Source: Tetramitus jugosus (lineage: Eukaryota; Heterolobosea; Eutetramitea; Acrasida; Vahlkampfiidae). From it: a DNA stretch of 64,000 nt. The translations under genes were made by a program, and so were the position numbers. Where the stretch lies: assembly GCA_937625935.1 (NCBI GenBank), contig OW569346.1, forward strand, positions 1 through 64,000. The letters run 5' to 3'. This document shows, one piece after another, positions 1-19,958 of the stretch. Each line of letters begins with the position of its first letter. The stretch's first letter is position 1. The notes under the pieces are model-generated. The model had not been told where the DNA came from and searched no databases. It saw nothing but the letters and a program-made list of their open reading frames with translations.

Positions 1-673
1 CAAACCCAAACCCAAACCCAAACCCAAACCCAAACCCAAACCCAAACCCAAACCCAAACCCAAACCCAAACCCAAACCCAAACCCAAACCCAAACCCAAA
101 CCCAAACCCAAACCCAAACCCAAACCCAAACCCAAACCCAAACCCAAACCCAAACCCAAACCCAAACCCAAACCCAAACCCAAACCCAAACCCAAACCCA
201 AACCCAAACCCAAACCCAAACCCAAACCCAAACCCAAACCCAAACCCAAACCCAAACCCAAACCCAAACCCAAACCCAAACCCAAACCCAAACCCAAACC
301 CAAACCCAAACCCAAACCCAAACCCAAACCCAAACCCAAACCCAAACCCAAACCCAAACCCAAACCCAAACCCAAACCCAAACCCAAACCCAAACCCAAA
401 CCCAAACCCAAACCCAAACCCAAACCCAAACCCAAACCCAAACCCAAACCCAAACCCAAACCCAAACCCAAACCCAAACCCAAACCCAAACCCAAACCCA
501 AACCCAAACCCAAACCCAAACCCAAACCCAAACCCAAACCCAAACCCAAACCCAAACCCAAACCCAAACCCAAACCCAAACCCAAACCCAAACCCAAACC
601 CAAACCCAAACCCAAACCCAAACCCAAACCCAAACCCAAACCCAAACCCAAACCCAAACCCAAACCCAAACCC
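1..673. repeat. Telomeric repeat array (CCCAAA)n / TTTGGG
   Basis: About 112 perfect copies of a 6-base unit with no variants, starting at the first base. The C-rich strand is written 5' to 3' at the left end, as expected for a left chromosome end, so the G-rich strand TTTGGG would form the 3' overhang. The unit differs from TTAGGG at one base. The array runs without a break into a CCCAAACCC motif that belongs to the retroelement at 668. The true length may be longer, because the sequence simply starts here. Confidence 0.95.
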
Positions 674-698
674 ACCCAAGACCCAAAATAAGAGGTAC

Positions 699-899
699 TT
701 GAGGGAAAAGGAGGCTGTCGAAGCGGCAATGGCCAAACGACACAAAACAACTCCTTCACAGTCCACATGGGACTCTTGCAACGTGAATACAACCGTTGTA
801 TCTAAGAGAGTGAGAGATACAAAGGGTTGTACGTTAATGCAGAGTGCACCTCGCATCAAGAAACGCAAACTTGATAGCATGGACTACAAGTGGTACTGA
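699..899 (+). pseudogene. Truncated C-terminus of retroelement ORF (distal copy)
   Basis: This 66-residue open frame is identical to the last 66 residues of the reverse transcriptase ORF ending at 3414. It is only the tail of a 5'-truncated copy, rich in Lys and Arg, with no catalytic motif. The open frame continues upstream into the telomere array because (CCCAAA)n has no stop codon in any forward frame. It is not expected to work by itself. Confidence 0.85.
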
Positions 900-910
900 A
901 CCATAAGATT

Positions 911-1065
911 CGTAGTCAGGATAAACCGTACGGGGTACGGCTCCGACTACAGTGCAAATCGCCAACGGCCAATTAAAATGGTCCTACGGACCATTTTTAT
1001 CGGCCCAATGGGCATTTGCAATCTTCCAAGGTTCAAGACTTTTGTGCAGCCAAGTTGACCTGCAC
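911..1065 (+). ncRNA. Cluster of perfect hairpins in the retroelement UTR (also at 3426-3580)
   Basis: Four stems are visible. A two-part stem pairs 912-917 with 945-950 and encloses 926-931 paired with 935-940. A 10-bp perfect hairpin pairs 975-984 with 988-997 around a 3-base loop, nested within 967-970/1002-1005 and 953-959/1014-1020. A 6-bp stem pairs 1044-1049 with 1060-1065. The same structures recur 2515 bases downstream. They could be the RNA site recognised by the reverse transcriptase or part of a self-cleaving ribozyme. I see no hammerhead core, so the class is unassigned. Confidence 0.55.
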
Positions 1066-1070
1066 TTTTA

Positions 1071-1078
1071 GTATAAAT
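1071..1078 (+). promoter_or_regulatory. TATA-like box in the pseudo-LTR (second copy at 3586)
   Basis: GTATAAATAATAAAG lies downstream of the hairpins and about 25-30 bases before the first downstream ATG (1104). In tandem Penelope-like elements the upstream pseudo-LTR supplies the promoter for the next copy, and the position here fits. It is a short AT-rich match in AT-rich DNA, so confidence is limited. Confidence 0.35.
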
Positions 1079-1125
1079 AATAAAGTTGTGGTGTAGAGTG
1101 CTCATGTTTAGGCACCGCACTAGAT

Positions 1126-3414
1126 TTGCGACCAGCCCGAATACCTGTGTTGCACGTAAATATACCACAACTAACAAACAACAACAACATCTCACTCGCC
1201 ACTCTCGCGCCCCATAGTGGAGTGTTTGAACCCAAACCCAAACCCAAACCCAAACCCAAACCCAAACCCAAGAAACTTGACGTCAGCAATGACATCCTCC
1301 ATTCGTCGGCTCGTGCTCTGATCCAAGAAGCATGGAGAAAAAGACACAATGCTCCAATTGTTCAAAACCTGAACGGCATTGACAATGAGGCCCTATTGAG
1401 ACTCGTCACAAATGAAGAATGGATCATTTGTGACACAGACAAGAACTTGGGCACCGCTGTCTGGCACAAAGACAATTACATTGAAGAATGTAAGAAACAA
1501 CTTGAAAGCCCAGTGTACAGCATAAGAGAGAACAAAAGATACACAGTCTCAACAATCAAGATTCTCACACACTGGTGCATTGATAAGATCTCAAATTTGC
1601 ACCCATCTATGGGTGAACACCTACGGAAAACAAGACAAATTGAGGATATCAATGAATTGTCCATTCCCAAGTTTTATTTGTTGCCAAAAGTGCACAAAGA
1701 CAAACTCCAAGGTCGACCAATTGTCGCCAGCCATAGTTGGGTCAACACTGAAGCATCCAAACTGCTCAGCATTAGACTCCGTCTAATGATCACTCAACTA
1801 CAGCAAAGACGAGACCAGGGTTTACTACCAGTAATGCCCATTGTTTCATCTTCATATGAAGCGAAACTGGTTCTCAACAAATGGTGCTTGCAGAATGGAG
1901 CAACGTGGGAATTCACAGTACATCCAAAGCTGCAAACCTACAGCTATGATTTCACTGCATTGTACACCAATTTGAGACATGACGTCATCAAAACAAATAT
2001 GGAGTACATCTTTGAAATGATGCAACAACTTGAACCAAACACTTGGACAAGTCAAGAAATTGGTGCAATGAAATTGTTATTGCATTTTGTGTTAACCTGC
2101 ACATACATTAGATGTGAGGAACTCAACAATAGCATTTTTAAACAAGTAATTGGCCTTCCAATGGGCACAAATTGTGCGCCTGAATTAGCCAACCTTGTGC
2201 TACTTGCTTATGAGTTGCAACACTTGACCAAAGTCAACAGATCCCACTGCATTGCAGTGAGGTACATTGACGATTTGTTCATTGCTTGCACAAAAGAGTG
2301 CATACCTACCATTGTCAACATGTACAATGGTTCGGATTTGAAACTCTGCAAAGCAGACAATAATGTTTTCCTGGATTTGCACATCCAATTGGAAAAGTAT
2401 TATGAGAACTTTGCAGTTCCATTATGGCGCTTTCACTTCAATGTCTACCAGAAGCCATTGAACAAGTACATGTACTCCATGTACAAGTCAGCGTCTTCAT
2501 TTGCAGCAAGGAAAGGTCTGATCACAGGTGAGTTGGTAAGATATGCTCGCCTTGTTGATCACTTCAAACAATTCGATTCAATTCGAACATTGTTTGCCTC
2601 TCGGTTAATCCGAAGAGGTTATGACCACCATTTCGTTCAACGAATGTTCAAAAAGAACAATTACTTTGCACTCGTTGAACGATACTGCAAATCAATTGAC
2701 TGGCAAGCCAGAGTGATCAAGTACCAACAAAAATTGGACTTGCAACACAAACCAAAAATTCCACCAATTTGGAAAGTGTTACACTCTGGCAGTGGCATCA
2801 ATTATCGACAATTGATAAATGCCATTTCTCTCTTCAATGAGATTGACTTGCCAAAGGAATTGGTCATTTGCAATGTCAGACTTCCCAACATTAGGGAAGT
2901 TCTGCACGCATGCAAAACCAAATTCAACACTTGGGTGCAACAATGTGATCAAATGCCAAACGAAGAAGAAAAGAAGAAAATGGCAAGAACATTGATGGAC
3001 GTTGTTGTTGGTAACCACAAACGACGTTGGCAGCGTACTTCATTTGCTGCACAACGACTGATCCGATCATTTTCGGAAAGGGGAAGTGGTTATTCAACAA
3101 TTCGACGCCAGTTGCAATTGCGACTTCGCAAAACATCACGCGGGTGCGTGATGCTGACGAAGTCAGCAACGCACCTGCGCCCAAACCCACCCAAGACCCA
3201 AAATAAGAGGTACTTGAGGGAAAAGGAGGCTGTCGAAGCGGCAATGGCCAAACGACACAAAACAACTCCTTCACAGTCCACATGGGACTCTTGCAACGTG
3301 AATACAACCGTTGTATCTAAGAGAGTGAGAGATACAAAGGGTTGTACGTTAATGCAGAGTGCACCTCGCATCAAGAAACGCAAACTTGATAGCATGGACT
3401 ACAAGTGGTACTGA
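1126..3414 (+). CDS. Penelope-like reverse transcriptase without GIY-YIG domain
   Basis: This open frame of about 762 codons reverse-transcribes the element's RNA at the chromosome end. Visible motifs, with residues counted from 1126: DKN at 105-107, LPKVHK and RPIV near 186-197, palm motif A D275 (FTALYTN), motif B GLPMGTNCAP at 343, motif C YIDD at 380-383, then FLDLHIQ and VYQKPLNKY, typical of Penelope-like RTs. The roughly 200 C-terminal residues hold no GIY-YIG nuclease. The frame has no ATG before the RT core. It opens after TAA at 1081-1083, crosses seven telomere units read as (Pro-Lys)7, and enters the RT. An ATG at 1104 could be joined by a 67-base GT-AG intron (1156-1222, donor GTAAAT), which restores frame; alternatively the 5' end is truncated. 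The coding end lies within the proximal pseudo-LTR. Confidence 0.85.
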   Translation: MRPARIPVLHVNIPQLTNNNNISLATLAPHSGVFEPKPKPKPKPKPKPKKLDVSNDILHSSARALIQEAWRKRHNAPIVQNLNGIDNEALLRLVTNEEWIICDTDKNLGTAVWHKDNYIEECKKQLESPVYSIRENKRYTVSTIKILTHWCIDKISNLHPSMGEHLRKTRQIEDINELSIPKFYLLPKVHKDKLQGRPIVASHSWVNTEASKLLSIRLRLMITQLQQRRDQGLLPVMPIVSSSYEAKLVLNKWCLQNGATWEFTVHPKLQTYSYDFTALYTNLRHDVIKTNMEYIFEMMQQLEPNTWTSQEIGAMKLLLHFVLTCTYIRCEELNNSIFKQVIGLPMGTNCAPELANLVLLAYELQHLTKVNRSHCIAVRYIDDLFIACTKECIPTIVNMYNGSDLKLCKADNNVFLDLHIQLEKYYENFAVPLWRFHFNVYQKPLNKYMYSMYKSASSFAARKGLITGELVRYARLVDHFKQFDSIRTLFASRLIRRGYDHHFVQRMFKKNNYFALVERYCKSIDWQARVIKYQQKLDLQHKPKIPPIWKVLHSGSGINYRQLINAISLFNEIDLPKELVICNVRLPNIREVLHACKTKFNTWVQQCDQMPNEEEKKKMARTLMDVVVGNHKRRWQRTSFAAQRLIRSFSERGSGYSTIRRQLQLRLRKTSRGCVMLTKSATHLRPNPPKTQNKRYLREKEAVEAAMAKRHKTTPSQSTWDSCNVNTTVVSKRVRDTKGCTLMQSAPRIKKRKLDSMDYKWY
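1231..1272. repeat. Internal telomere repeat inside the RT reading frame
   Basis: Six perfect CCCAAA units and a seventh CCCAAG lie between the distal pseudo-LTR and the RT body. They mark the place where the distal copy was joined to what was then the chromosome end. The unit length of 6 keeps the reading frame, so the stretch is read as Pro-Lys repeats. Confidence 0.9.
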
Positions 3415-3750
3415 ACCATAAGATTCGTAGTCAGGATAAACCGTACGGGGTACGGCTCCGACTACAGTGCAAATCGCCAACGGCCAATTAAAATGGTCCT
3501 ACGGACCATTTTTATCGGCCCAATGGGCATTTGCAATCTTCCAAGGTTCAAGACTTTTGTGCAGCCAAGTTGACCTGCACTTTTAGTATAAATAATAAAG
3601 TTGTGGTGTAGAGTGCTCATGTTTAGGCACCGCACTAGATTTGCGACCAGCCCGAATACCTGTGTTGCACGTAAATATACCACAACTAACAAACAACAAC
3701 AACATCTCACTCGCCACTCTCGCGCCCCATAGTGGAGTGTTTGAACCCAA
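3183..3750 (+). repeat. Proximal pseudo-LTR of the retroelement
   Basis: A second copy of the 568-base direct repeat, holding the last part of the RT ORF (stop at 3412-3414), the hairpin cluster (3426-3580), a TATA-like sequence and the terminal ...TTGAACCCAA. At 3751 the sequence changes to AT-rich subtelomeric DNA. The CCCAA at the junction is five bases of a telomere unit, consistent with attachment to a telomeric 3' end that had only a partial repeat left. Confidence 0.85.
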
Positions 3751-5128
3751 GTCAACTTCAATTTTTTTTTTTCTACCTAAAAACTCAAAAAGTTTACCAA
3801 CACATTTCTCTGTCTATTTTTCACCCATATTTCAAAAATTAACCTTCTTTATCTATGTTTAATCAGTATGTTGGTTTATTTTGATCAGTGCATCAGAGAT
3901 TCAGTTTGATGTTCTTTTGTAAATCAAAATATTTTCGGGAGTTGCACCCTCCATCGTTTTATTATGTTTTTTTATTCTTTACAATAGAATAAGCAGATAA
4001 TATGTTGTTCTACAGTGTTACGCTTTTTTATCCTTCTTAACTATTTTTGTTTGCTCTGAATATCTCCCAAGCACAACTTCGAAATATCAGTGAGTTGAGA
4101 ATGACTTCTATTACAATTCTAATGGTTATATACTTTGCCTCTCGGTTAAATAATACTTCTGTGGTGACTTGAACTCATTGCAGTTATTTTTTATTCCTGG
4201 GTGCTGTGCACTCAATATCTTCATCTGATAAAAACCATCCCAAACACTTTACTATGAACAATATAATATTATCCATGTCCTATTTTCTTGAAAAAATGTA
4301 TTTTCTTCCTTTTTGCATCACCGGATTTGAATTAATACCTGACATGCTTGTTTGAAAAAGAATGAGCTCAAAAAAATCATTGTTATTTTGTCTTCCATTG
4401 GCCTCTTCTCGAAAAATGCTTCCTGGCCTCACTATTCCTTAGAAAAATAATCGACTTCCTCATTTTGTGTATTTTTACAATGATGACTAAATAGGATTCA
4501 CTTATCTTGGTATTTAGAGCTCTTTCCTATGTTTGATCAGTCATTTATCATCCACTCTTTTAAAGATAATTACAGTTGAAAATTTCCATTTGTGCACGAG
4601 TTTGCTGAATAATCGGAATACAATTTTCCAAAAATAATGGAATTTTTGTAATCTACGTCCTTATATTGACTTAGAATAGCCTTATTCATAGTCAGTGACA
4701 AATTTTGATGTATCTGGTATGCATGTCCTCTACTCTATATCTCCGATAGGATAGCATGAAGTCAAAAAAAAGAGTCGGACAAAAAGAATCAATGAATATG
4801 TGAAAGAGTAATAGAGAAACCTAATACAGTTGTTAGATCTGAAATATCATATAAATCAACTGATCTGTTAACTCGTAGTTCTGAAAAACGATTTTACTGA
4901 GCAAATGGTTTTTTTTTGACCAAAGCCCAAAAAAAAAGCTTTTTTTTTACATGAAGCAGTTTTTATACTCGAAAAAATGACTTGTTTTTATGATTGAGAC
5001 AAGAGGGTATGTCGTTACGTGCTCAAACCAACCTACATCGTCCGCATTTTTTGTGCTCTTTCTAACAACACCAGCAGCATGGCTCGAAACCGCCTGGAAG
5101 CCTGGTTTGGGTCGTAGTATAATTACCA
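3751..5128. other. AT-rich gene-free subtelomeric DNA
   Basis: About 1.4 kb with many A and T runs, stop codons in all frames and no ORF above about 60 codons that looks like protein. I see no RNA gene or transposon ends. A single reverse-orientation TTTGGG unit occurs near 5105, just before the forward interstitial telomere repeats. Confidence 0.6.
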
Positions 5129-5150
5129 CCCAAACCCAAACCCAAACCCA
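5129..5150. repeat. Interstitial telomere repeat 1
   Basis: Three and a half CCCAAA units in the same orientation as the terminal array. They probably mark a former chromosome end or break repaired by telomerase, now buried under later additions. Confidence 0.8.
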
Positions 5151-5267: not shown

Positions 5268-5281
5268 CCAAACCCAAACCC
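5268..5281. repeat. Interstitial telomere repeat 2
   Basis: About two CCCAAA units directly abutting the open 5' edge of the pseudogene at 5282. The join of telomere DNA to a gene that lacks its beginning suggests that the gene was broken and capped here. Confidence 0.65.
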
Positions 5282-16744: not shown

Positions 16745-18259
16745 TTAACAATACTTTTGTGTCTCAAAGTTTGCCAAGGAAAACTTGACTTCGCGTCTGA
16801 AGATGTTCGATGGTATACGAGCGAACATGTCGAGTAGCTGGCAGTTAAAGGAAGCCGGGCCAACATCTGGTTGACTACTGGCCATCTCAGCACACACGCC
16901 TGTATAAGCAAGTGCAGTTGAAACAGCTACCAAGGGGTCTGACACTGACGCAAAGCAACCCGTGATCGCACTAACTACACAACCAGCACCAGTTATGCTA
17001 GTTAAGAGAGGTACATTGTGGTGGATGCGAACAATTCTTGTGCCATCAGAGACAATATCGATGGGTCCTGTAATCGCAGTAATGCACTTGTATCTTGAGG
17101 CTAGTATTCTTGCAACCAAATCTCCATCTTGTGAGTTGCCTGATGAATCCACTCCCTTGGACATTGATGAGTCATCAAAACATAGAGATTCCATCTCACC
17201 TTGATTCCCTTTTAGTATTGTAACATATGAACTCATGAGCAACTTTTTCACTGCTTCCTTTCGAAACTTGCTAGCTCCACAACCCACAGGATCGAGTATA
17301 ACTGGCTTCCCTAAACGAGATGCATTGGCAGCAGCCATACACATTGATTCAATTGAATAATTATCTAGTGTGCCAATATTCAATACAAGGGCATTTGAGG
17401 CTGAACTTAACTCTTGCATCTCTTCATGGGCATGAGCCATAACTGGGGAAGCACCAACTGCCAAAATAGCATTCGCTGTTAATTGTGTAACCACATTGTT
17501 TGTAATGTTATGAACGAGTGGTTTTTGTTGTCTTACATTGCGTAATGCATCTACCATTTTTTCACGGAGTTCGAGGTAGACTGGACTATGGAAACGCTTA
17601 TCTAACATGAATCGCAACGCTCCGGCGCTCTTCTCACAATTATCCGATGAGGAGATTGCTGAAATGACGGCAACTCCCGTAACACCCGTATCCAAAATAC
17701 TCTGTATGTTTGACATGTTGATTCCACCAATGGCAACAACAGGTGTGCGTACCATCTCTGCCTGAGAAGCAATGGTTCGCAACGTTTCGAGACCTATGGG
17801 TCGAGCATCAGTCTTTGTCATTGTATCGAAGATGGCATCTGTTCCAACATAATCTGCACGACTCGATAACACAGCATCTAAAACCTGCTCTCTATTGGAC
17901 ACTGTGACTCCCAAAATACGATCAACACCAATCAGTTTCCTGACATCAACCGGGTCCATATCCGATTGTCCCACATGGACGCCATCAGCCCCAGAAGCCA
18001 GCATAACATCTGTTCTATCATTTATGATCAAGGGCACATTGTGAGCTCTGGTAATCTTCAACAGGGAACGAGCCGTTTGTACAAAACTACGCGTATTAGG
18101 CACAGGATCTTTCTCTCTCAGTTGAATGATGGAAGCACCACCCAGTATGGCTTGTTTGACAGTTTCCTCCACCGTGGATCCTCTATTTGCACACAATCGT
18201 GAGCCAATCACAAAATACAAACTATAGTCAATCAGACTGCGGCCAGTTGTCGAAAGCAT
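16745..18259 (-). CDS. Bifunctional thiamin phosphate synthase / hydroxyethylthiazole kinase (ThiE-ThiM)
   Basis: Residues about 1-215 match ThiE: IQLREKD, LIINDR, GADGVHVGQSDMD and VVAIGGI, which bind the pyrimidine and thiazole phosphates joined into thiamin phosphate. Residues about 230-504 match ThiM: HNITNNVVTQLTANAILAVG, VLNIGTL, ILDPVGCGA, KGNQGE and the ATP-site TGAGC, phosphorylating hydroxyethylthiazole. The fusion order is the same as yeast THI6. The start is ATG 18259; the frame extends upstream only with non-ATG codons. It lies head-to-head with the TenA-ThiD gene, so all four salvage activities are encoded side by side. No mitochondrial targeting sequence is obvious. Confidence 0.93.
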   Translation of the reverse strand: MLSTTGRSLIDYSLYFVIGSRLCANRGSTVEETVKQAILGGASIIQLREKDPVPNTRSFVQTARSLLKITRAHNVPLIINDRTDVMLASGADGVHVGQSDMDPVDVRKLIGVDRILGVTVSNREQVLDAVLSSRADYVGTDAIFDTMTKTDARPIGLETLRTIASQAEMVRTPVVAIGGINMSNIQSILDTGVTGVAVISAISSSDNCEKSAGALRFMLDKRFHSPVYLELREKMVDALRNVRQQKPLVHNITNNVVTQLTANAILAVGASPVMAHAHEEMQELSSASNALVLNIGTLDNYSIESMCMAAANASRLGKPVILDPVGCGASKFRKEAVKKLLMSSYVTILKGNQGEMESLCFDDSSMSKGVDSSGNSQDGDLVARILASRYKCITAITGPIDIVSDGTRIVRIHHNVPLLTSITGAGCVVSAITGCFASVSDPLVAVSTALAYTGVCAEMASSQPDVGPASFNCQLLDMFARIPSNIFRREVKFSLANFETQKYC

Positions 18260-18455
18260 TTCTTCCAAAAAGTAGTCTGTTTTCTGATCCCAATGTTTTT
18301 CTCCGAGTGTGGAAACTTTTTGTTAAGAAAAGATGATCCGGATGAATTTTTCAGTTCAGGGGTTCTAATCTGATTAGAAGATTTGATCTCCATAAGACAA
18401 CAACAACAATTCACGCTTGTGCCCCACGAAAACACTCACCAACTACCAATATAAA
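18260..18455. promoter_or_regulatory. Bidirectional promoter region of the thiamin salvage pair
   Basis: 196 bases separate the two ATGs. A short perfect inverted repeat (TTCTAAT CTG ATTAGAA) lies near 18364-18380. I looked for a TPP riboswitch core on both strands and did not find CTGAGA with the second conserved half, so regulation by thiamin is only suggested by gene pairing. Confidence 0.4.
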
Positions 18456-19958
18456 ATGCTCTTCTCGAAAGAAATTATAGAGTCAATTACTCCACTTCTT
18501 GACCAGATATTTTCACATGATTGGACAATTCAAATGATTGAGGGCACACTGCCAACCGACAAGTTTCGTGGCTACATTATTCAAGATGCCATCTATCTTC
18601 ATCACTTCCTTCGTGTCCTGGCCATTGTTGCGAGCAAATGTTCTGTGACTGAGAATATGCAGCAAATTCTAAAGTTTTTGAGTGACACCATTCCTTCTGA
18701 AGTCCATATGCAAGAGGGTTACTTTAAGGAACTGGGAATACCACCCTTGGAGGAAATGTTGCAAGATCTCGATATTCAATCTCCAAATAATTTCATGTAT
18801 TGCACATTTTTGAAGGAAGTTAGTACAATGGGCAGTTTTGCTGAAGGTCTGTGTGCAGCTTTCGCTTGTCCATATGTCTATATGGTCGTTGGTCAACACA
18901 TCAAAGAACATGCAAAGCCAAACAATCCTTATTGTAGGTGGATCAATGAATATGCTGATCCAGCTTTTTGCGAGGCAGTACAACAGATGGCCAAGATTAT
19001 TGACCAAGAAGGGTTGAACCTCTCGCGGAAACAGAGAAATGTGTGTCGCTCCCATTTTGTTNNNNNNNNNNNNNNNNNNNNNNNNNNNNNNNNNNNNNNN
19101 NNNNNNNNNNNNNNNNNNNNNNNGCTACATTCGTCCATGATGAGTCAAAGTAGAATGCCGTGTGTTCTCACGATTGCAGGCTCGGATTCTGGTGGAGGGG
19201 CTGGTATACAAGCCGACTTGAACACATTTACAGCGAATCGCGTATTTGGTACGACTGCCATTGCTGCATTGACTGCTCAAAATTCACAGGGCATCCAGAA
19301 CATTCATGTACCACCGAGTGAATTCTTGATTGATCAAATTAATTCTGTGTTGAGCGACATGGATGTCCAGGTTGTCAAAATTGGCATGCTGCACGACCAA
19401 GAGGTCATTGAGAAAGTTGCACATAGGTTAAAGTCGGAGAACGTGAAAATCATTTTGGATCCAGTGATGGTGGCAACAAGTGGAGGTAGACTTCTAAAAG
19501 ATGCTGCCTTGGACATTTTAGTGTCAAAATTGCTCCCCATTACCTATTGTATTACTCCAAATATTGACGAAACGGAGAGTCTTTTAAAGGTTCTACATGC
19601 TCCGTTTTCTTCTGTCGACTCTATCGAGGCAATGGAACGAGCTGCCAGATATGTATCAGAACATTGTAAGATTCCATTCGTTTTGGTCAAAGGAGGTCAT
19701 CTTCCATTCTCTCAAAGATGCGTGGATGTCCTATACGATCTAGAAAATGATCGCATTCACATGTTGGAAGGTCCATTCTTTAACACTCCCAATACTCATG
19801 GTTCGGGATGCAGTTTGGCTGCTGCTGTCGCAGCCAATTTGGCTAATGGATTTCCGATGCTCGAGAGTGTGGCCAACGCAAAGAAGTATGTTTCTGGTGC
19901 CATTCAGCGAGGAGTTTCAATCGGTAAGGGTTGCGGTACCTTGAATCACAGTTCTTGA
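18456..19958 (+). CDS. Bifunctional TenA / hydroxymethylpyrimidine (phosphate) kinase (TenA-ThiD)
   Basis: Starts at ATG 18456. Residues about 1-200 are TenA-like ([22 protein letters not shown] with the expected active-site Cys), a hydrolase that recovers aminopyrimidine from damaged thiamin. After the run of Ns comes Thi[47 protein letters not shown], the kinase that makes HMP-PP. The order is the reverse of yeast THI20 (ThiD then TenA). The 62-base N run at 19062-19123 lies between the domains. The frame matches on both sides, but the gap length may be only an estimate, so the linker and total length (about 500 aa) are not certain. Confidence 0.88.
19062..19123. other. Assembly gap (62 N)
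   Basis: An unresolved stretch inside the TenA-ThiD coding region. It should hold the linker and the end of TenA. The true length is unknown. Confidence 0.98.

Follow-up and report, generated by a model that had tools for sequence, protein, structure and literature searches.

Organisation of the chromosome end

We analysed 64,000 nucleotides of Tetramitus jugosus DNA (assembly GCA_937625935.1, contig OW569346.1, positions 1 to 64,000; hereafter the window), which form the left end of contig C3; other C numbers denote contigs of the same assembly. The window opens with a terminal telomere, behind which lie two copies of a Penelope-like element (PLE), a retroelement whose reverse transcriptase (RT) motifs are kept in the inner copy (Table 1). 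An earlier note had described positions 668..3750 as one endonuclease-less PLE attached to the telomere and lying between telomere repeats. The kind of element and its attachment are borne out by the terminal copies and by the endonuclease searches below, while its extent has to be revised: the window holds no full element, only a 5'-truncated body of ~2.48 kb and, distal to it, a still shorter copy of ~0.57 kb comprising the 3' part alone, which we term a pseudo-long terminal repeat (pLTR). The flanking repeats are likewise present on the outer side, where Tandem Repeats Finder (TRF) puts the terminal tract at 1-687, and reduced on the centromere side of the body to just one degenerate unit (CCCAAG).

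The stretches 665-1235 and 3180-3750 are identical in sequence, and the outer edge of the distal pLTR recurs in C10. The frame of the second open reading frame (ORF2) is open from upstream of 1270 and stops at 3412-3414. A copy at the right end of C10 matches window 1270-3750 and then extends upstream as coding sequence, the window having telomere repeats at that place; we call the window copy truncated because the C10 copy reaches further upstream and includes a motif, KGLKFIP, that the window copy has lost. In the 3' untranslated region (UTR), a short hairpin has two pairs that changed on both sides in the most diverged copy, C9L2 (columns 326-338 and 328-336), with pairing kept. We claim this hairpin only, since the covariation term for the predicted structure as a whole is unfavourable (+8.14). 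The putative promoter motif TATAAATAA is exact in six of seven aligned copies, C9L2 deviating.

Table 1. Features at the left end of contig C3, in window coordinates
Feature	Position	Strand	Remarks
Terminal telomere, (CCCAAA)n on plus strand	1..673	+	3' overhang would be TTTGGG
Distal copy, 3' part of element only (pLTR)	665..1230	+	starts at element-internal CCCAAACCC
Seven CCCAAA telomere repeats between distal pLTR and body	1231..1271	+	
5'-truncated PLE body	1270..3750	+	100% identity to C10 across 2481 bp
Leftover ORF2, RT and C-terminal region	1270..3414	+	714 codons and stop; codons 560-1273 of the C10 frame
DKN motif of RT	1438	+	converted from residue numbers
First D of DFTALYTN, RT	1948	+	converted from residue numbers
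GLPMG motif of RT	2152	+	converted from residue numbers
YIDD catalytic motif	2263..2274	+	converted from residue numbers
Sole CCCAAACCC in body besides 3' end	3180..3188	+	C10 positions 5676 and 6242 ff.
Proximal pLTR	3180..3750	+	last ~77 ORF2 codons, stop, 3' UTR, 3' end
3'-UTR hairpin, TAC loop	3482..3520, also 967-1005	+	
TATAAATAA, possible promoter within pLTR	3587..3595, also 1072-1080	+	putative function, from sequence
Element 3' end, GTTTGAA then CCCAA	3739..3750	+	join to former telomere
Interstitial telomeric tract, inner edge of T8 unit	5129..5149	+	
Interstitial telomeric tract, family T7	5273-5281	+	

Coding capacity of the long copy

The element in C10 measures ~5.0 kb from body start to 3' end and has two ORFs, as judged from this one copy. 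ORF1 (L048:123-1049, reverse strand) encodes 309 amino acids with an arginine/serine-rich tail and precedes the ORF2 frame, which it overlaps by 94 nt; ORF2 is an open frame of 1273 codons that includes the RT. An A7 run inside ORF1 marks the opening of the ORF2 frame and is a candidate -1 frameshift site for which we claim no function. ORF1 was also compared with the N-terminal region of fungal-type proteins, and homology was rejected (hhalign probability 1.8%, hmmsearch E 2). The alignment to a homologous protein, P0002, begins at about codon 514 of C10 ORF2 and takes in KGLKFIP.

Across 36 aligned sequences, the invariant or nearly invariant RT columns are D57-K58 (DKN), K140, H142 and K143 (LPKVHK), D227, G295, M298 and G299 (GLPMG) and Y332-D335 (YIDD). 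These are the motifs that the earlier note had listed, its D275 being our D227 in an ORF starting 48 codons sooner. The Pfam RVT_1 match to the window RT is weak by itself (E 8.6e-5, 22.8 bits vs a curated 29.6), and a single-sequence search against solved structures gave no match for the RT. An RT profile matches the solved RT 8bgj (E 1.5e-7), telomerase not being among the profile's structure matches, and the predicted RT fold has telomerase as its best match among solved structures (Foldseek). Homologues, the profile match to solved RTs and the fold together settle the identity of the domain despite the weak RVT_1 score, and on sequence and modelled fold it is a PLE-type RT related to telomerase.

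The C10 copy is apparently near-complete and carries no detectable GIY-YIG endonuclease, N- or C-terminal. Pfam found no GIY-YIG domain in the window copy, in C10 ORF1 and ORF2 or in homologues P0001-P0003, and recognised both control bearers, P0047 and P0111. Our own GIY-YIG profile, which recovered 12 of 12 bearers (these having helped to build it), reached at best E 0.33 on the six frames of C10, which is chance level. The genome has GIY-YIG matches at two positions, C16:19914 and C42:257067, neither contig carrying a PLE copy. Thus a longer copy was found, and the domain that could have overturned the earlier assignment was not detected in it. Scanning six loci and window 600-3900 against Rfam to E 5 revealed no hammerhead ribozyme, the six and three matches of the scans all being to other families and below gathering scores; a core-motif scan of the pLTR found no CUGANGA...GAAA hammerhead core.

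The ORF2 protein has been constrained for most of the time separating the copies. Relative to C10, dN/dS is 0.106 for C17 and 0.087 for C48 (resting on few changes, 7 and 4, respectively), 0.123 for C9L, 0.092 for C9R, 0.132 for C50 and 0.184 for C29, that is, ~0.09-0.18, over dS values of 0.010 to 0.47; C3 is identical to C10. Stop codons occur within the aligned part of C9L, C9R, C50 and C29. Such constraint fits a lineage that keeps retrotransposing.

Genomic distribution and junctions

In the genome of 26 Mb (56 contigs), searches with the protein and the UTR gave 19 and 15 matches, which collapse to 15 PLE loci. Thirteen of them are no more than 13 kb away from a contig end, in a zone covering 5.5% of the genome; this limit was chosen after the places were seen, 12 of 15 loci fall within 10 kb, and the length used for contig C22 is a bound given by its size rank. 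The copies are therefore not mainly internal, and the 3' end points toward the centromere, as had been claimed for the window copy, at 11 of the 13 terminal loci, that of the window included (C29 and C12 being reversed). The six longest copies (C3, C10, C17, C48, C9 left and C9 right) are all terminal and in the expected orientation. Elsewhere the genome has 68 other RVT_1 matches, two of which (C1 and C22) were counted by eye as near an end. At 21 left contig ends, tblastn with the element RT found it at C3, C17 and C9; further rows, at C7, C1 and C12, have E values of 1.9-6.2 only. C1 carries an RVT_1 fragment at 4436. The matches of the UTR fragments on C7, C22 and C8 begin at points further inside the pLTR.

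In all nine readable intact 3' ends (C3 twice, C10 twice, C17, C48, C9 left twice and C50), TTTGAA is followed by CCCAA in the same register. On the inward side, roughly one to seven repeats separate them from other DNA: the C10, C48 and second C9-left copies have ~3-4 telomere repeats on the centromere side, and C3 and C10 have their next few bases in common (TCAACTTC, where a shared subtelomeric unit begins), the other ends differing. The 3' end is missing from the C9 right and C8 copies. The internal copy at C50:168443-169767 retains an intact 3' end with CCCAAACCC; resemblance of its inner flank to the 5' start of the C10 body is limited to about ten bases at the beginning, and no ORF1 match was found there.

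Six of nine readable 5' edges (C3 body, C3 pLTR, C10 pLTR, C17, C48 and C9 left body) abut telomeric or telomere-like repeats; these edge counts leave out the small fragments C29, C30, C49, C35 and C12, plus C7 and C22. The four truncated bodies start at four different points. The three complete pLTR-only copies (C3, C10 and C9 left) all start at the sole body-internal CCCAAACCC.

Other subtelomeric units

The 21 left ends also carry eight families of telomere-flanked units, T2-T9, some known from two copies only, with conserved outer flanks ending at CCCAAACCC and differing inner flanks; tblastn found no element RT in them. With the PLE tracts counted in, 39 of 42 non-terminal telomeric tracts at these ends are in telomere orientation, and window 10001-64000 holds no interstitial tract. 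There are 25 occurrences of the T2 edge. Fourteen are forward, all no more than 2.8 kb from a left contig end; of the 11 reverse ones, eight are no more than 4 kb from a known right end and three are on contigs of unknown length. The T3 edge occurs at seven places (five forward, two reverse). The T2 tail CCCAAACCCAAACCCAACCC is exact in six of nine copies read and the T3 tail CCCAAACCCAACCC in four of four. These degenerate tails end in CCCAACCC and are then mostly followed by non-telomeric, unrelated DNA; one T2 copy, at C10, continues into telomere repeats. T2 directly adjoins the truncated PLE bodies at C17 and C48, and T3 does so at C9 left. That the PLE machinery built the whole chromosome end, with T2-T9 as non-autonomous RNAs copied by the PLE RT onto broken or eroded ends in a repair system operating alongside telomerase, strikes us as improbable.

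Host, telomerase and neighbouring genes

The window gene at 18417-19955 encodes a TenA-kinase fusion. Its closest full-length relatives with a name come from Willaertia magna (37% identity), Naegleria lovaniensis (40%) and N. gruberi (37%), and a metagenome protein is 95% identical to it. Because of these relatives the host is likely a heterolobosean, as the earlier note had supposed, yet judged by this one window gene it belongs in neither Willaertia nor Naegleria. The gene is part of a head-to-head pair of fused thiamine-synthesis genes (16745-19958), with TMP synthase and hydroxyethylthiazole kinase on the minus strand and TenA and phosphomethylpyrimidine kinase on the plus strand.

The genome also has a telomerase gene: PF12009 matches at C31:284128 (E 5.1e-39), within a 1074-codon open frame. 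Telomere starts 20 of the 21 left contig ends read. The left end of C21 (1-556) has an AT-rich and long poly-C low-complexity stretch before the telomere, which looks like an assembly artefact.

Origin of the chromosome-end copies

We consider it very probable that the copies are chromosome-end insertions of an endonuclease-deficient PLE of the Athena/Coprina kind, living on telomeres and primed by the TTTGGG overhang. The element RNA would end in ...UUUGAACCCAA(ACCC)n and could pair with the single-stranded overhang, whose 3' end the telomerase-like RT would extend outward, leaving the new copy with its own 3' end toward the centromere. Copying would mostly stop early, or the new end would erode, and the raw end would then be capped with telomere repeats by the host telomerase; repeated rounds would stack copies head to tail. 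We infer that the body-internal CCCAAACCC is a preferred recapping seed when an end erodes or copying stops nearby. Recapping there would leave an outer unit with the TATAAATAA of the 3' region before the next copy. This short outer copy, with its TATA-bearing 3' region, may act as a promoter for the copy behind it, an arrangement that would resemble HeT-A, in which the promoter is supplied by the 3' end of the neighbouring copy.

Several observations weigh against overhang priming at telomeres. The reversed C29 and C12 fragments near ends are in the wrong orientation, the loci at C50 (in the middle of the contig) and C7 (at 57 kb from an end) are internal, and three of the nine 5' edges (C9L2, C9R and C50) have no telomeric repeat beyond them. 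Bdelloid Terminons, unlike this element, have a hammerhead ribozyme. The Foldseek TM-scores to telomerase are modest (0.34-0.39 of query in the first four rows), and the lower telomerase rows of the fold search stand level with viral polymerases. Lastly, the T2-T9 units, which lack the element RT, share the feature of CCCAAACCC at the inner edge, so recombination can mimic part of the evidence.

In the strongest alternative, recombination was the main means of spread: an eroded or broken end would invade a CCCAAACCC tract of another chromosome and copy everything distal to it by break-induced replication, the RT having once been active and the copies now being passengers. The non-coding T2-T9 units, with their conserved outer sides, CCCAAACCC inner edges and differing inner flanks, would suit such a process, as would the distribution of the T2 edge over its 25 places (forward at left ends, reverse mostly at known right ends), the 100% identity of the C3 and C10 copies across 2481 bp and the single starting spot of all three complete pLTR-only copies. 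It fails to account, however, for truncation points that are not alike among the four bodies and for an ORF2 constrained on lineages up to dS 0.47 apart, since passengers would not show constraint; the different DNA just inside the 3' end at most chromosome ends also speaks against it. As the main route we hold recombination to be unlikely; between chromosome ends it probably helped to spread copies.

An endonuclease-less PLE might also prime on any free 3' end, such as that of a double-strand break, and be found terminally because insertions are tolerated there. The C50 copy, internal yet with its 3' end intact, argues for this, and so do C17 and C9L1, which join non-telomeric DNA inward after ~1.5-2 repeats and thereby also count against overhang priming. 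Entry into CCCAA in one register at nine of nine intact 3' ends is unexpected without pairing, unless CCCAA belongs to the RNA, and we judge break priming as the general explanation to be quite unlikely. Both recombination and break priming remain partial contributors. Domestication of a telomerase-like RT by the host for end maintenance, which the fold closest to telomerase, the terminal location and the ORF2 constraint might suggest, is highly implausible given that a separate gene holds the only match in the genome to a telomerase RNA-binding domain and that the RT is part of multi-copy units that have UTRs, are truncated and are decaying.

Phylogenetic position

The RT tree comprises 61 RTs, is rooted on the C-terminal GIY-YIG clade and includes no identified Athena sequence. 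The query and P0001, P0002 and P0003 form one clade (100/100), sister to 17 rows of N-terminal GIY-YIG type (99/81), which we take to be Naiad/Chlamys-like; a simple pattern finds GIY-YIG in 12 of these 17, the remaining rows being grouped by the tree. A fungal-type endonuclease-less clade of nine rows (four with fungal names) is separate (95/99), as is a clade of ten C-terminal GIY-YIG rows (Penelope/Poseidon; 100/100). The neighbours were no different in an earlier quick tree with 58 rows (SH-aLRT 90). Constraining the query clade to join the fungal group is 36.8 log units worse and is not rejected (p-AU 0.078). The RT sequences therefore place the element, though not decisively, beside the N-terminal GIY-YIG PLEs rather than the fungal endonuclease-less ones. 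If this placement holds, it bears on how often endonucleases have been gained or lost.

Relation to known elements

The telomere-attaching, endonuclease-less habit is known from a few distant organisms, such as rotifers and fungi, and the cases are scattered. Endonuclease-less PLEs primed by chromosome ends offer a living model for how a mobile element might have turned into telomerase. T. jugosus offers a compact genome with one long and several truncated copies, junctions readable base by base and a telomerase gene alongside. We found no report of telomere-attached PLEs in Naegleria or other Heterolobosea among the matches listed in open-licence literature (titles and abstract starts), which does not establish absence from print; the element is another case of the known endonuclease-deficient telomeric kind, in a host group for which we found no earlier report.

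The HeT-A, TART and TAHRE elements of Drosophila lie with their 3' end inward. They too form retroelement stacks at chromosome ends (PMC5537684, in the excerpt cited). In contrast to the PLE, they are non-LTR elements (without long terminal repeats) that replace telomerase, whereas Tetramitus has a telomerase gene and telomerase-type repeats. PLE RTs and telomerase are described as having a common ancestor (PMC3846280, excerpt); the telomerase protein TERT differs in its PF12009 RNA-binding domain, which is not in the element and whose sole genome match is the one on C31.

Among PLEs, those with an N-terminal GIY-YIG resemble the element in the G-L/I/V-PMG motif, present in all seven aligned sequences, and differ in the endonuclease at their N-terminus, none being found in the C10 element. 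The fungal endonuclease-deficient PLEs (Coprina and kin; the proteins compared carry the names Orbilia, Aspergillus, Podosphaera and Metarhizium) share RT homology of 26-27% and have no GIY-YIG listed for them. The best tree sets the Tetramitus element apart from them, although a joint clade is not rejected, and its ORF1 is not significantly similar to their N-terminal region.

Excerpts of PMC3846280 describe endonuclease-deficient PLEs as thought to be primed from exposed chromosome termini and as largely confined to ends, their truncated 5' ends receiving telomeric repeats. Parts of PMC6431247 give them two ORFs in 4-6 kb, or giant Terminons in rotifers, and a 3' end of reverse-complement telomeric repeats behind a hammerhead, and a tandem arrangement with pLTRs is noted for PLEs generally in a portion of PMC11167929. 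Closest in habit are the Athena/Terminon PLEs of bdelloid rotifers, which, in the passages cited (PMC3846280, PMC6431247), are endonuclease-deficient and telomeric, have 5' ends truncated by telomeric repeats, form head-to-tail stacks and carry reverse-complement telomeric repeats at the 3' end. The Tetramitus element differs in that no hammerhead was detected before its 3' tail, in its size (~5 kb vs up to 40 kb) and in its TTTGGG telomere. Of the traits that these papers give for endonuclease-deficient PLEs and for PLEs generally, it fits each except the hammerhead and is therefore another endonuclease-deficient telomere-associated PLE.

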